Source of the DNA: Arthrobacter sp. StoSoilB22
GTDB lineage: Bacteria > Actinomycetota > Actinomycetes > Actinomycetales > Micrococcaceae
Direction: 5' to 3'
Length of the DNA stretch: 64,000 nt
Assembly: GCF_019977315.1 (NCBI RefSeq)
Contig: NZ_AP024652.1
Span: forward strand, 1,736,001-1,800,000
The notes under the pieces: model-generated
Told to the model about the DNA's origin: nothing
What the model saw: the letters and a program-made list of their open reading frames with translations, nothing else
The model's database searches: none
Position numbers and translations under genes: made by a program
Shown: positions 696 through 51,562 of the stretch, one piece after another
How the letters are laid out: each line of letters starts with the position of its first letter
Position numbering within the stretch: the stretch's first letter is position 1

Positions 696-1172
696 ATGGT
701 TGGCGGCGAACAGAATGAAGCCAATGTCGGGAACGGCGCGGAGGAACAGCCGTCGTCGGAGACCACCTCGATCAGCATTACGCCTACGTGGGACGAGCCG
801 AGCATTGCGCCCAAGTTGGCACCTGAAGAGCGTGCGTCCGTAGACGCGCTTCCGCCGAACTCAGCCCTGCTCATAGCGCACAGCGGCCCCAATGCCGGTG
901 CTCGTTTCCTGTTGGATGCGGACACCACCACGGCGGGACGCCATCCGGATGCTGACATCTTCCTGGACGACGTCACGGTATCGCGCAAGCACGTTCAGTT
1001 CATTAGGTCTGAGTCCGGTTTCGAGCTGGTGGATATGGGAAGCCTGAACGGTACATACGTCAATCACGACCGCGTGGACCGCGTGCAGCTGAAGACCGGC
1101 AGCGAGGTACAGATCGGCAAGTTCCGGTTGACCTACTACCTGAGCCCTGTTCGCGCAGCAGGCCAAGTCTGA
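696..1172 (+). CDS. garA: FHA-domain metabolic regulator, GarA/OdhI type
   Basis: Small phospho-switch protein. In mycobacteria and corynebacteria GarA/OdhI binds and controls 2-oxoglutarate dehydrogenase and glutamate enzymes, and is switched by Ser/Thr kinases that phosphorylate an N-terminal ETTS motif. Here SSETTS lies at residues 20-25, with threonines at 23 and 24. A single FHA domain follows, at about residues 50-150, with GRHPDADIFLDD, SRKHV and GSLNGTYVN visible. The 158-residue length fits the family. The ATG at 696 follows an AGGAGGA site. Residues after ETTS (ISITPTWDEP) differ from the VFRADF seen in the mycobacterial and corynebacterial proteins. The location between gcvH and the merR gene supports the assignment. 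The kinase at 15560-17620 is a possible partner, by inference only. Confidence 0.9.
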   Translation: MVGGEQNEANVGNGAEEQPSSETTSISITPTWDEPSIAPKLAPEERASVDALPPNSALLIAHSGPNAGARFLLDADTTTAGRHPDADIFLDDVTVSRKHVQFIRSESGFELVDMGSLNGTYVNHDRVDRVQLKTGSEVQIGKFRLTYYLSPVRAAGQV

Positions 1173-1186
1173 CGGGGTATCTGCCT

Positions 1187-1909
1187 GTGGCTATGGCCCA
1201 GCAGGACCGTCGCGGACCGCAGGTCCTGAATATCGGGGAAGTCCTTGCCCAGCTGAGTGAAGACTTTCCCGGTATGACGGCGTCCAAGATCCGGTTCCTT
1301 GAGGAAAAGGGACTCATCAATCCCAAGAGGACTCCTGCCGGCTACCGTCAGTATGCAGACAGCGATGTTGAGAGACTCCGCTTCGTCCTGGCCCTTCAGC
1401 GTGATCAGTATCTGCCGCTGAAGGTCATCAAGGACTATCTCGACGCAATCGATCGCGGCGAGAGGCCGGAGAATCTCCCTCCCGGTGTCACAGTGTCGCC
1501 CCGGGTGGTCTCTGCGGAAATGGCAGCGGAAGTGCAGGGGCGCGCCCGTGCCCTCACTGAAGAGCAGCTGCGTGCCGAGTCGGGTGCAAGCGTGCCGATG
1601 CTCGAATCATTGCTGAGCTTCGGGTTGATCAGTCACGTGGGTGGCAAGTTTGACGAACACGCCCTCCAGGTGGCGCGAGCCTGTGTGCAATTGGAAGGCC
1701 ACGGACTGGAGCCCCGGCACCTCAGGCCCTTCCAAGCTGCCGCTGAGCGGGAGTTCGGCCTGGTGGAGAGGGCTGTTGCCCCCTTGACCTCTCGACGGGA
1801 TGCTGCGTCCCAGGCCCGGGCAGCTGAGGCTGCCCGGGAGATCAGTGATCTTTGCCTGACCCTGCACAGGGCCTTGGTGCACGACCGTATCTCACGGATG
1901 GACAGCTGA
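1187..1909 (+). CDS. ftsR: MerR-family regulator of cell division, FtsR type
   Basis: Transcription factor homologous to Rv1828 and to corynebacterial FtsR, which activates ftsZ. A winged helix-turn-helix occupies about residues 12-90 (ASKIRFLEEKGLI followed by GYRQY), the classic MerR layout. The C-terminal half is a helical domain without a cysteine metal-sensing motif. The start is GTG 1187, or ATG 1193 two codons later; the sequence does not clearly separate them. Its TGA overlaps the ATG of the next gene (TGATG), implying translational coupling. A dyad upstream of ftsZ (38785-38807) and another upstream of the next merR gene (2416-2438) are candidate targets. The family is certain; the target assignment is inferred from corynebacterial work. 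Confidence 0.88.
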   Translation: MAMAQQDRRGPQVLNIGEVLAQLSEDFPGMTASKIRFLEEKGLINPKRTPAGYRQYADSDVERLRFVLALQRDQYLPLKVIKDYLDAIDRGERPENLPPGVTVSPRVVSAEMAAEVQGRARALTEEQLRAESGASVPMLESLLSFGLISHVGGKFDEHALQVARACVQLEGHGLEPRHLRPFQAAAEREFGLVERAVAPLTSRRDAASQARAAEAAREISDLCLTLHRALVHDRISRMDS

Positions 1910-2412
1910 TGATCGAAGTCGAAATCGTCGGGGTCCGGATCGAGCTGCCTTCCAATCAGCCGTTGGTGCTGCTTCGGGAGATCAACGGAGAACGCCACGT
2001 TCCCATCTGGATTGGAACTCCTGAAGCCAGCGCCATCGCCCTGGCGCAGCAGGGCGTTGTCCCGCCCCGGCCCATGACCCACGATCTCCTGGTGGACGTT
2101 GTGGAGTCCTTGGGGCACTCCATCATCAGCGTGAACATTGTGGCCGTGGAGGACAACATCTTCTATGGGCAACTGCAGTTCGACGACGGCACGGTGGTCA
2201 GTTCGCGCGCTTCTGACGCGTTGGCCTTGGCGCTGCGTGCCAAGTGCCGCATCTGGTGCGCAGATGCTGTGATGGAGGAAGCCGGCGTTCGTATCACTGA
2301 ACACGATGAAGGCGAGGATTCGGAGCCGGATCCCGCGGTGGACGAAGAGCGCGAAATGCGCCGGTTCCGGGAGTTCCTGGACGACGTTGAACCGGAAGAT
2401 TTCGAAGGCTGA
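1909..2412 (+). CDS. Bifunctional nuclease family protein (DUF151)
   Basis: Cytoplasmic protein of 167 residues in the DUF151 bifunctional nuclease family, homologous to Rv1829. Members have been reported with DNase and RNase activity, but the role in actinobacteria is unsettled. The family core is visible from the N-terminus (MIEVEIVGVRIEL, PIWIGTPEASAIALA) through RASDALALALR. The C-terminal tail is acidic (EDSEPDPAVDEE). The start at ATG 1909 overlaps the ftsR stop by one base and keeps the family N-terminus; an upstream in-frame start would run into ftsR. It is co-transcribed with ftsR by position. Confidence 0.88.
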   Translation: MIEVEIVGVRIELPSNQPLVLLREINGERHVPIWIGTPEASAIALAQQGVVPPRPMTHDLLVDVVESLGHSIISVNIVAVEDNIFYGQLQFDDGTVVSSRASDALALALRAKCRIWCADAVMEEAGVRITEHDEGEDSEPDPAVDEEREMRRFREFLDDVEPEDFEG

Positions 2413-2415
2413 TCC

Positions 2416-2438
2416 ACCCTAAGCCTAAAGTTGAGGGT
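2416..2438. promoter_or_regulatory. 23-bp dyad, candidate MerR/FtsR operator
   Basis: On the minus strand this reads ACCCTCAAC-N5-GCTTAGGGT, an imperfect inverted repeat of 9+5+9 bases. It matches the dyad before ftsZ (38785-38807) at 18 of 23 positions with the same spacing. It lies just after the DUF151 stop and about 210 bp before the second merR gene. MerR-type regulators bind dyads of this size. The regulator is inferred. Confidence 0.5.
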
Positions 2439-2646
2439 GAAACTTTCGACACGACCGGATTTTGAGGCGAAGGTCTTTGACCTCGGCGCTCCACAGGCCT
2501 AACGTCGAAGTTATCAAGTTCCCGTTGCATACACTGCCTGCGCAAGTCACACTGGAAGGTGCGGACTTGCGGGAATTACACTGCTGCATTTCGCCGTTGT
2601 AACAGGTATGCACCGTCCCCAAGGGAACTGAGAACAAGGAGGTCAC

Positions 2647-3240
2647 GTGAGTCCGAAAGGCGAAGCAGGCGAGCTGAAGCAGTCCTCTGCCGGCATTGCT
2701 GCGCCCGCATCCGGCGCCCAGGGTCTGCTCTTCACCGAGGACCTTCCTGTGCTGGACGAGGACGCGGGCTATCGCGGTCCCACTGCCTGCAAAGCGGCAG
2801 GCATCACCTACCGTCAATTGGACTACTGGGCGCGTACGGGCTTGGTTGAGCCCGCTGTCCGCGGTGCTGCCGGCTCCGGTTCGCAGCGGCTCTACGGCTT
2901 CCGCGACATCCTGGTGCTCAAGGTGGTCAAGCGCCTCCTTGATACCGGCGTGTCACTCCAACAGATCCGCACCGCGGTCGAACACCTCCGCGAGCGGGGC
3001 GTTGAGGACCTCGCGCAAATAACGCTGATGAGCGACGGTGCCAGCGTGTACGAATGTACATCTGCTGATGAGGTCATCGACCTCGTCCAGGGCGGACAAG
3101 GCGTCTTCGGCATAGCGGTGGGACGTGTATGGCGGGAAGTAGAAGGAAGCCTGGCCGCGTTGCCCAGTGAGCACGCTGGTGAGCAGTCCTTTCCCGACGA
3201 CGAACTGGGCAAGCGTCGCGTCGCGCGGCGCATCAGCTAA
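2647..3240 (+). CDS. MerR-family transcriptional regulator (Rv1830-like)
   Basis: Second MerR-type regulator of the block, 197 residues. The DNA-binding domain spans roughly residues 43-120 (ITYRQLDYWARTGLVEP, then RLYGFRDILVLKVVKRLLDTGVSLQQIR). The C-terminal part carries no recognisable effector domain. GTG 2647 is preceded by a strong AAGGAGGT site. The 234-bp gap upstream contains the 23-bp dyad at 2416-2438, so autoregulation or control by FtsR is plausible. A strong terminator follows. The orthologous position in mycobacteria is Rv1830. Confidence 0.87.
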   Translation: MSPKGEAGELKQSSAGIAAPASGAQGLLFTEDLPVLDEDAGYRGPTACKAAGITYRQLDYWARTGLVEPAVRGAAGSGSQRLYGFRDILVLKVVKRLLDTGVSLQQIRTAVEHLRERGVEDLAQITLMSDGASVYECTSADEVIDLVQGGQGVFGIAVGRVWREVEGSLAALPSEHAGEQSFPDDELGKRRVARRIS

Positions 3241-38770: not shown

Positions 38771-38807
38771 TTGACATAACTATAACCTTCAACTAGAGGG
38801 TTAAGGT
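38771..38807 (+). promoter_or_regulatory. ftsZ promoter region with 23-bp dyad
   Basis: TTGACA (38771-38776) is followed after eight bases by ACCTTCAAC-TAGAG-GGTTAAGGT (38785-38807), an inverted repeat with 7 of 9 arm positions paired. It shares 18 of 23 positions with the dyad at 2416-2438. Corynebacterial FtsR activates ftsZ directly, so this is a plausible FtsR site. It lies about 60 bp before GTG 38869. A -10 hexamer is not clear; TAGAGG at 17-bp spacing lies inside the dyad. Confidence 0.55.
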
Positions 38808-38868
38808 CCAAGGATTCAAGTTGGACTCGATCAGTTTCGCTATAGGACACAAGCAAGGGGCACGAAAC

Positions 38869-40089
38869 GTGGCAGCACCGCAGAATTACTTGGCCGTCAT
38901 CAAGGTCGTCGGCATCGGCGGCGGTGGCGTGAACGCAGTCAACCGTATGATCGAGGTCGGCCTTCGGGGCGTCGAGTTCATCGCCATCAACACCGACGCG
39001 CAGGCGCTGCTCATGAGCGACGCCGACGTCAAGCTCGACGTCGGACGTGAGCTCACCCGTGGCTTGGGTGCAGGAGCGAACCCGGAGGTCGGAAAGCAGG
39101 CAGCAGAAGACCACGCCGACGAGATCGAAGAAGTTCTCCGCGGTGCTGACATGGTCTTCGTCACGGCAGGCGAGGGCGGTGGCACCGGTACCGGTGGTGC
39201 TCCCGTGGTCGCGCGCATCGCCCGCTCCCTCGGTGCGCTGACCATCGGCGTCGTGACCCGACCCTTCACCTTCGAAGGCCGGCGCCGTGCAGGCTCTGCC
39301 GAGGCTGGAATTGACGCCCTCCGCGACGAAGTCGACACCCTGATTGTGATCCCGAACGATCGCCTTCTGTCCATCAGCGACCGCAATGTCTCCGTCCTGG
39401 ACGCCTTCCGCTCTGCGGACCAGGTACTCCTGTCCGGTGTCCAAGGCATCACTGACCTCATTACCACTCCCGGCCTGATCAACCTTGACTTTGCTGACGT
39501 CAAGTCAGTCATGCAGGGCGCGGGGTCTGCCCTCATGGGCATCGGTTCCGCCCGTGGTGAAGACCGAGCCGTCAAGGCTGCGGAACTGGCCATCGCCTCG
39601 CCGCTCCTGGAGGCCTCCATTGACGGCGCCCACGGTGTCCTGCTGTCCATTCAGGGCGGCTCCGATCTGGGCCTGTTCGAAATCAATGAAGCCGCGCGCC
39701 TGGTGCAGGAAGTGGCCCACCCTGAAGCGAACATCATCTTTGGTGCCGTCATTGACGACGCCTTGGGAGATGAGGCTCGCGTGACAGTCATCGCAGCGGG
39801 CTTCGACGACGTCAAAGCAACCTCGCCTTCCATGGATCAGTCCCGTCCGGCCCAGAACCCGGTGCCTTCGGAAAGGCCTGCTGCTCCGAGCAGTGCGCCG
39901 TCCAACGCTGCAGCCCCGCAGCACGCCACGGCAGGTATCGGTGCTGCAGGCCTGAGCAACTGGGGCCAGCAGCGTCCGTCGGCCTTGCCTGCGGACTCCG
40001 GCTTTGACGTCGACCTCCCTGCAGTTGTTGAACCCGACCTTTCGGGCAGCCGCTCCGATGATCTCGACGTTCCTGACTTCCTGAAGTAA
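38869..40089 (+). CDS. ftsZ: Cell division protein FtsZ
   Basis: Tubulin-like GTPase that forms the division ring at midcell. The 406-residue protein has the core [16 protein letters not shown], the tubulin signature [10 protein letters not shown] at residues 101-110 and the T7 loop [12 protein letters not shown] variable linker rich in Pro, Ala and Ser is followed by a C-terminal peptide [10 protein letters not shown] that binds SepF and other partners. GTG 38869 was chosen because it gives the conserved [14 protein letters not shown] start after an AAGGGG site; a TTG at 38821 would add 16 residues. It has its own promoter and a candidate FtsR dyad. Confidence 0.97.
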
Positions 40090-51398: not shown

Positions 51399-51434
51399 CA
51401 CTACATATATGGGTACCCCGTACTACATGTAGTA
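51399..51434 (+). promoter_or_regulatory. Putative NrdR boxes upstream of nrdR
   Basis: Two AT-rich palindromes lie in this stretch. One is centred on CATATATG (51404-51411), and the other is the perfect 14-bp TACTACATGTAGTA (51421-51434). Their centres are 20 bp apart, about two helical turns. NrdR binds paired palindromes of this kind, so autoregulation is likely. The remaining 51354-51562 stretch shows no gene. Confidence 0.5.
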
Positions 51435-51562
51435 GTTACACGCTTGTCATTACGGTGGGGCGGCCCGTAAACTGGTGCCGGAAGAGAATCTTCCGGCACT
51501 TTTGCGTATCCGGCGTCCTGCCGTTTCCGAGTCCGTGCCGGAGCTGTCAGGGGAGGCCCAGC

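Follow-up and report, generated by a model that had tools for sequence, protein, structure and literature searches.

Two similar dyads, one upstream of ftsZ and the other upstream of the resR/mcdR orthologue, lie in the window (the whole 64,000-nucleotide stretch of Arthrobacter sp. StoSoilB22 DNA analysed here), and we consider it very probable that both are operators of FtsR, a MerR-family regulator encoded in the same window (Table 1). The ftsZ operator is already known in kind, and the same operator at resR/mcdR appears to be the new part. Judged from sequence comparison, the recurrence of this operator at resR/mcdR across many actinobacteria, next to a WhiA/WhiB-type box, seems to be a link in division control that has gone unreported; a report joining FtsR to resR was not found in the open-licence literature. 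How actinobacteria regulate their division is poorly understood, and mutations in resR matter in tuberculosis treatment.

The minus strand at 2416–2438, upstream of resR (the second merR gene), reads ACCCTCAACTTTAGGCTTAGGGT, and the plus strand at 38785–38807, upstream of ftsZ, reads ACCTTCAACTAGAGGGTTAAGGT. Direct reading of both sites confirmed the original prediction that the merR dyad, given there as ACCCTCAAC-N5-GCTTAGGGT, is identical to the ftsZ dyad at 18 of 23 positions when read on the minus strand, with equal arm spacing, and that a TTGACA at 38771–38776 ends eight bases ahead of the ftsZ copy. The 23-bp dyad exists as described, but the element that contains it is longer at both loci (38778–38808 and 2415–2445), spanning 31 bp and made up of four half-sites spaced by about 6 bp (consensus AACTnTAAnCCTCnAcTTGAGGGTGAGGGTT). 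Because of this half-site spacing, the element has three dyad centres 3 bp apart. Column symmetry across 28 families was highest at 38793 and had smaller maxima 3 bp away in both directions: 38790, the register of the published Corynebacterium glutamicum repeat, and 38796, the centre of the dyad originally described. That dyad is one of three overlapping registers, and the best class-wide centre is 38793, not 38796.

Table 1. Features of the ftsR–resR block and the ftsZ promoter, in window coordinates
Feature	Position	Strand	Basis
garA-like FHA protein, first gene of the ftsR block	696–1172	+	Pfam FHA
ftsR	1187–1909	+	NCBIfam NF050798 FtsR equivalog, 277.7 bits (cut-off 150); C-terminal half matches Rv1828, PDB 5ydc
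bfn, bifunctional nuclease domain protein between ftsR and resR	1909–2412	+	Pfam PF02577
Predicted FtsR-type operator upstream of resR/mcdR	2415–2445	+	29.0 bits, own family excluded from matrix
CGACACG, WhiA/WhiB(2)-type box	2447–2453	+	Sequence; motif as in PMC9040748 and PMC4850268
Candidate resR −35, TTGACC	2477–2482	+	Consensus match only; conserved across the genus
Candidate resR −10, TAACGT, 17-bp spacer	2500–2505	+	Consensus match only; conserved across the genus
ResR/McdR-like palindrome AATTACACTGCTGCATTT, 2 mismatches to AATnACAnnnnTGTnATT	2574–2591	+	McdR motif from PMC9040748
resR/mcdR orthologue (second merR gene)	2647–3240	+	Pfam MerR_1; gene order
Candidate ftsZ −35, TTGACA	38771–38776	+	TTGACATAACT conserved across the class
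Predicted FtsR operator upstream of ftsZ	38778–38808	+	40.1 bits, own family excluded; 28-family conservation; absent without ftsR
ftsZ	38869–40089	+	NCBIfam TIGR00065

The likeness of the two sites is far above chance. A 31-bp matrix built from the ftsZ promoters of other families only, with the window's own family left out, scored the ftsZ site at 40.1 bits and the merR site at 29.0 bits in the 64-kb window, against 6.3 bits for the next separate site. The ftsZ promoters were collected from 74 genomes sampled across the class, and the gapless element TTGACATAACTnTAA..CTC..TTGAGGGTGAGGGTT recurs at ftsZ in most of them, so that the enrichment upstream of ftsZ orthologues on which the original prediction hinged proved strong and extended over 28 families. 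The two window sites also ranked best in the complete 4.55-Mb genome (24.9 and 21.1 bits, then 14.2) under model R1, whose 43 sequences include both of them. Searching with the consensus first proposed gave 2 matches against 0.10 expected, a circular comparison in that this consensus was derived from the same two sites, and a whole-genome pattern count allowing 3 mismatches was uninformative (85 matches versus 59 in the reversed control).

Several observations point to FtsR as the protein that reads this element. At ftsZ, C. glutamicum FtsR (Cg1631) recognises AACCCTAAAGTAAAGGTTGAGGGTA, as found in vivo by ChAP-Seq and in vitro by EMSA, and activates the gene; ftsZ is also the reported top ChIP target of Rv1828, and similar motifs have been given for other actinobacterial ftsZ promoters (PMC6683498). 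Among all 25-mers on both strands of the window, the merR site was the best match to the FtsR site of C. glutamicum (18/25) as well as to the one proposed for M. tuberculosis (19/25), and the ftsZ site matched the 25-bp C. glutamicum inverted repeat at 15 positions. The element was also lost together with ftsR. In one family (f29), all 13 genomes with ftsR have the ftsZ operator within 2 mismatches, and none of the remaining 16 of the 29 genomes, which lack ftsR, has it within 3 mismatches. These 16 form a clade (G066, G090, G110, G119 and 12 more genomes) and probably represent one evolutionary loss, not sixteen. The element was likewise found nowhere in either of two ftsR-less genomes from other families (G027 and G029). 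There were two exceptions: G195 has the operator and no ftsR was found in its 30 contigs, perhaps owing to an assembly gap, and G026 encodes a divergent FtsR and the operator was not found there. Because the element matches the published motif, is conserved and is lost with ftsR, the proposal that an FtsR operator connects ftsZ to the second merR gene is supported, and these comparisons strongly support FtsR as the probable reader. The co-loss of ftsR and its ftsZ operator also speaks, independently, for FtsR as the protein that mainly reads the ftsZ promoter in actinobacteria. As a separate observation, the ftsR-less genome G119 (L134/L206) retains TTGACATAACG about 235 bp before ftsZ with the dyad gone, as if the operator had decayed.

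The original prediction had also allowed for an Rv1830-like MerR protein as the binder, in which case the dyad would be the operator of ResR/McdR, the second MerR protein, regulating both itself and ftsZ. The dyad does sit upstream of resR, and several division genes go down when mycobacteria overexpress McdR (PMC9040748). However, the tested McdR motif, AATnACAnnnnTGTnATT, differs from the dyad (PMC9040748), and a ResR-like palindrome stands separately in the same promoter region, at 2574–2591. Moreover, the 16 ftsR-less f29 genomes have no ftsZ operator, and the four of them that we examined all keep resR, together with garA and bfn. We rejected Rv1830/ResR as the binder of the dyad on the motif difference and the co-loss of the operator with ftsR, and regard this reading as highly improbable. 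Another possible reader is a different DNA-binding protein, for example one that acts on the nucleoid or in segregation, with its gene lost alongside ftsR; the repeated hexamer half-sites permit such readings, and the genus also has a site before parA-scpA. Against this, the C. glutamicum sequence, which is closely similar, is bound by FtsR both in vivo and in vitro (PMC6683498), and a location in the garA–ftsR and resR promoters is in keeping with autoregulation and regulation and not with a structural role, leaving another reader extremely unlikely.

The FtsR-type operator at resR extends well beyond Arthrobacter. With leave-family-out matrices, sites of at least 10 bits were present upstream of resR in 27 of 74 genomes, representing 17 families, compared with 0.09 genomes expected from dinucleotide shuffles and with 1 of 71 in neighbouring coding DNA. 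When the zones around the gene block were compared at a threshold of at least 8 bits, sites occurred in 28 of 71 resR promoters and in 20 of 68 promoters of the garA–ftsR operon (11 families; L067–L137), in 1 of 68 cases inside ftsR, and in none of 66 garA–ftsR gaps or 66 ftsR–bfn junctions. Among 80 named loci, 47 carry the resR site, including those of Arthrobacter, Paenarthrobacter, Nocardioides, Cellulomonas and Bowdeniella. Of the named relatives of the window genome, Arthrobacter sp. 18067 (98% identical ResR) and Paenarthrobacter sp. CM16 (97%) are the nearest. Within the genus, the resR site of many species is weaker, at about 10–25 bits. The site was not found in four sampled genomes of family f19, presumably the family holding Mycobacterium, although the GACAC box is kept there. 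The resR promoter of mycobacteria thus seems to be without the FtsR arm, and since these genomes have no FtsR site at resR, the link may have gone unseen in that family. Similarly, the nine peaks in the C. glutamicum FtsR ChAP-Seq table include none at the resR orthologue (PMC6683498); together with the f19 genomes, this indicates that the resR link is not universal.

At the resR promoter, the operator is followed in order by CGACACG, TTGACC and TAACGT, which places it upstream of the likely −35. WhiA/WhiB recognise GACAC in Streptomyces (PMC4850268), and in mycobacteria WhiB2 activates mcdR through cGACACGc (PMC9040748). The CGACACG at 2447–2453 fits this pattern, in which co-regulated genes have GACAC close to their promoters, and is a predicted site of this type. 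Of the 47 named loci with the operator, 44 have a GACAC/GTGTC box no more than 50 bp downstream, 8 have one in the 56 bp upstream, and 25 have a spacing of exactly 2 bp between operator and GACAC. This arrangement bears on the possibility that FtsR has its operator at ftsZ alone and that the resR dyad is a chance or relic match. The weaker resR site in several sister species and the lack of a peak at the resR orthologue among the nine C. glutamicum peaks both speak for that reading. On the other side stand the score of the resR site (29.0 bits, where the next separate window site reaches 6.3), its presence in the resR promoters of 17 families where 0.09 genomes were expected, and the fixed 2-bp spacing in 25 of 47 named loci, and we judge a chance or relic origin to be very unlikely.

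Further downstream, the palindrome at 2574–2591 is a candidate site for autoregulation by ResR, judged by its resemblance to the McdR motif. ResR-like palindromes with at most 3 mismatches were present in 35 of the 80 named loci, compared with about 1.7 expected from mononucleotide shuffles. Elsewhere in the window, AGTTACACGCTTGTCATT at 51434–51451 has one mismatch to the McdR motif and lies before a gene resembling nrdR, adjoining ACTACATATA/ACTACATGTAGT repeats that are perhaps NrdR boxes.

The gene order garA–ftsR–bfn–merR was found in 65 of 73 loci. It had been suggested that the ftsR–merR block would form a small regulon with the dcw cluster, and this held in part: resR carries a site, but garA–ftsR–bfn in this genome does not, the operator having been sought before garA without success (best upstream score −15.6 bits). 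In the 11 families with sites at the garA–ftsR promoter, their position suggests possible autoregulation by FtsR. We also found a third site in this genome, a 31-bp FtsR-type element before parA-scpA, about 10.3 kb upstream of the window (G000:C1:1725646-1725674; L223, L238). This element, with a GTGTC box downstream, is present in the window genome and in 12 relatives of the genus and was not found in 20 genomes of other families, so the claim is made at the level of the genus only.

We propose that an FtsR dimer would bind the 31-bp element, or possibly two dimers, because there are four half-sites. At ftsZ, FtsR bound directly after the −35 would activate transcription, by analogy with C. 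glutamicum. In MerR-type promoters the site lies between −35 and −10 in a spacer of 19–20 bp; the candidate ftsZ −10 sequences are GAGGGT, 19 bp after TTGACA, and TAAGGT, 25 bp after it. Spacer remodelling of this kind does not fit at resR, because the site is upstream of the likely −35 (TTGACC, 2477). There, FtsR would most likely be an upstream activator acting together with WhiA/WhiB ahead of the TTGACC-17-TAACGT promoter, although both the activation of resR and the cooperation with WhiA/WhiB are guessed from the layout. FtsR could in this way set the levels of both FtsZ and ResR/McdR, the latter of which controls whiB2 in mycobacteria. The full model, in which FtsR would directly control resR/mcdR through a composite FtsR–WhiA/WhiB operator in many actinobacterial families, with FtsR acting on ftsZ, FtsR and WhiA/WhiB on ResR, ResR on whiB2, FtsR on itself in some families, and parA-scpA joined in this genus, seems to us evenly poised between right and wrong. 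If FtsR does drive resR beside WhiA/WhiB, three separately studied division regulators would be one circuit.

Three known systems resemble the arrangement described here. The FtsR operator at ftsZ (Cg1631 in C. glutamicum and Rv1828 in M. tuberculosis; PMC6683498) has in common with it the regulator, as an NCBIfam equivalog, and the promoter; here, by contrast, the element is resolved to 31 bp and has three dyad centres that overlap, and there is a second conserved target, resR, besides garA–ftsR (other families) and parA-scpA (this genus). The McdR–WhiB2 feedback loop of mycobacteria (PMC9040748) shares with it the orthologous resR/mcdR promoter, the WhiB2-activated cGACACGc box and a candidate McdR palindrome; it differs in that an FtsR element stands just upstream of the box here and was not found in the sampled, presumed Mycobacterium genomes. 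Finally, the Streptomyces promoters co-regulated by WhiA and WhiB, which include that of ftsZ (PMC4850268), likewise have a GACAC box upstream of a promoter in the division network, whereas in our case the gene is a different one and an FtsR element accompanies the box.
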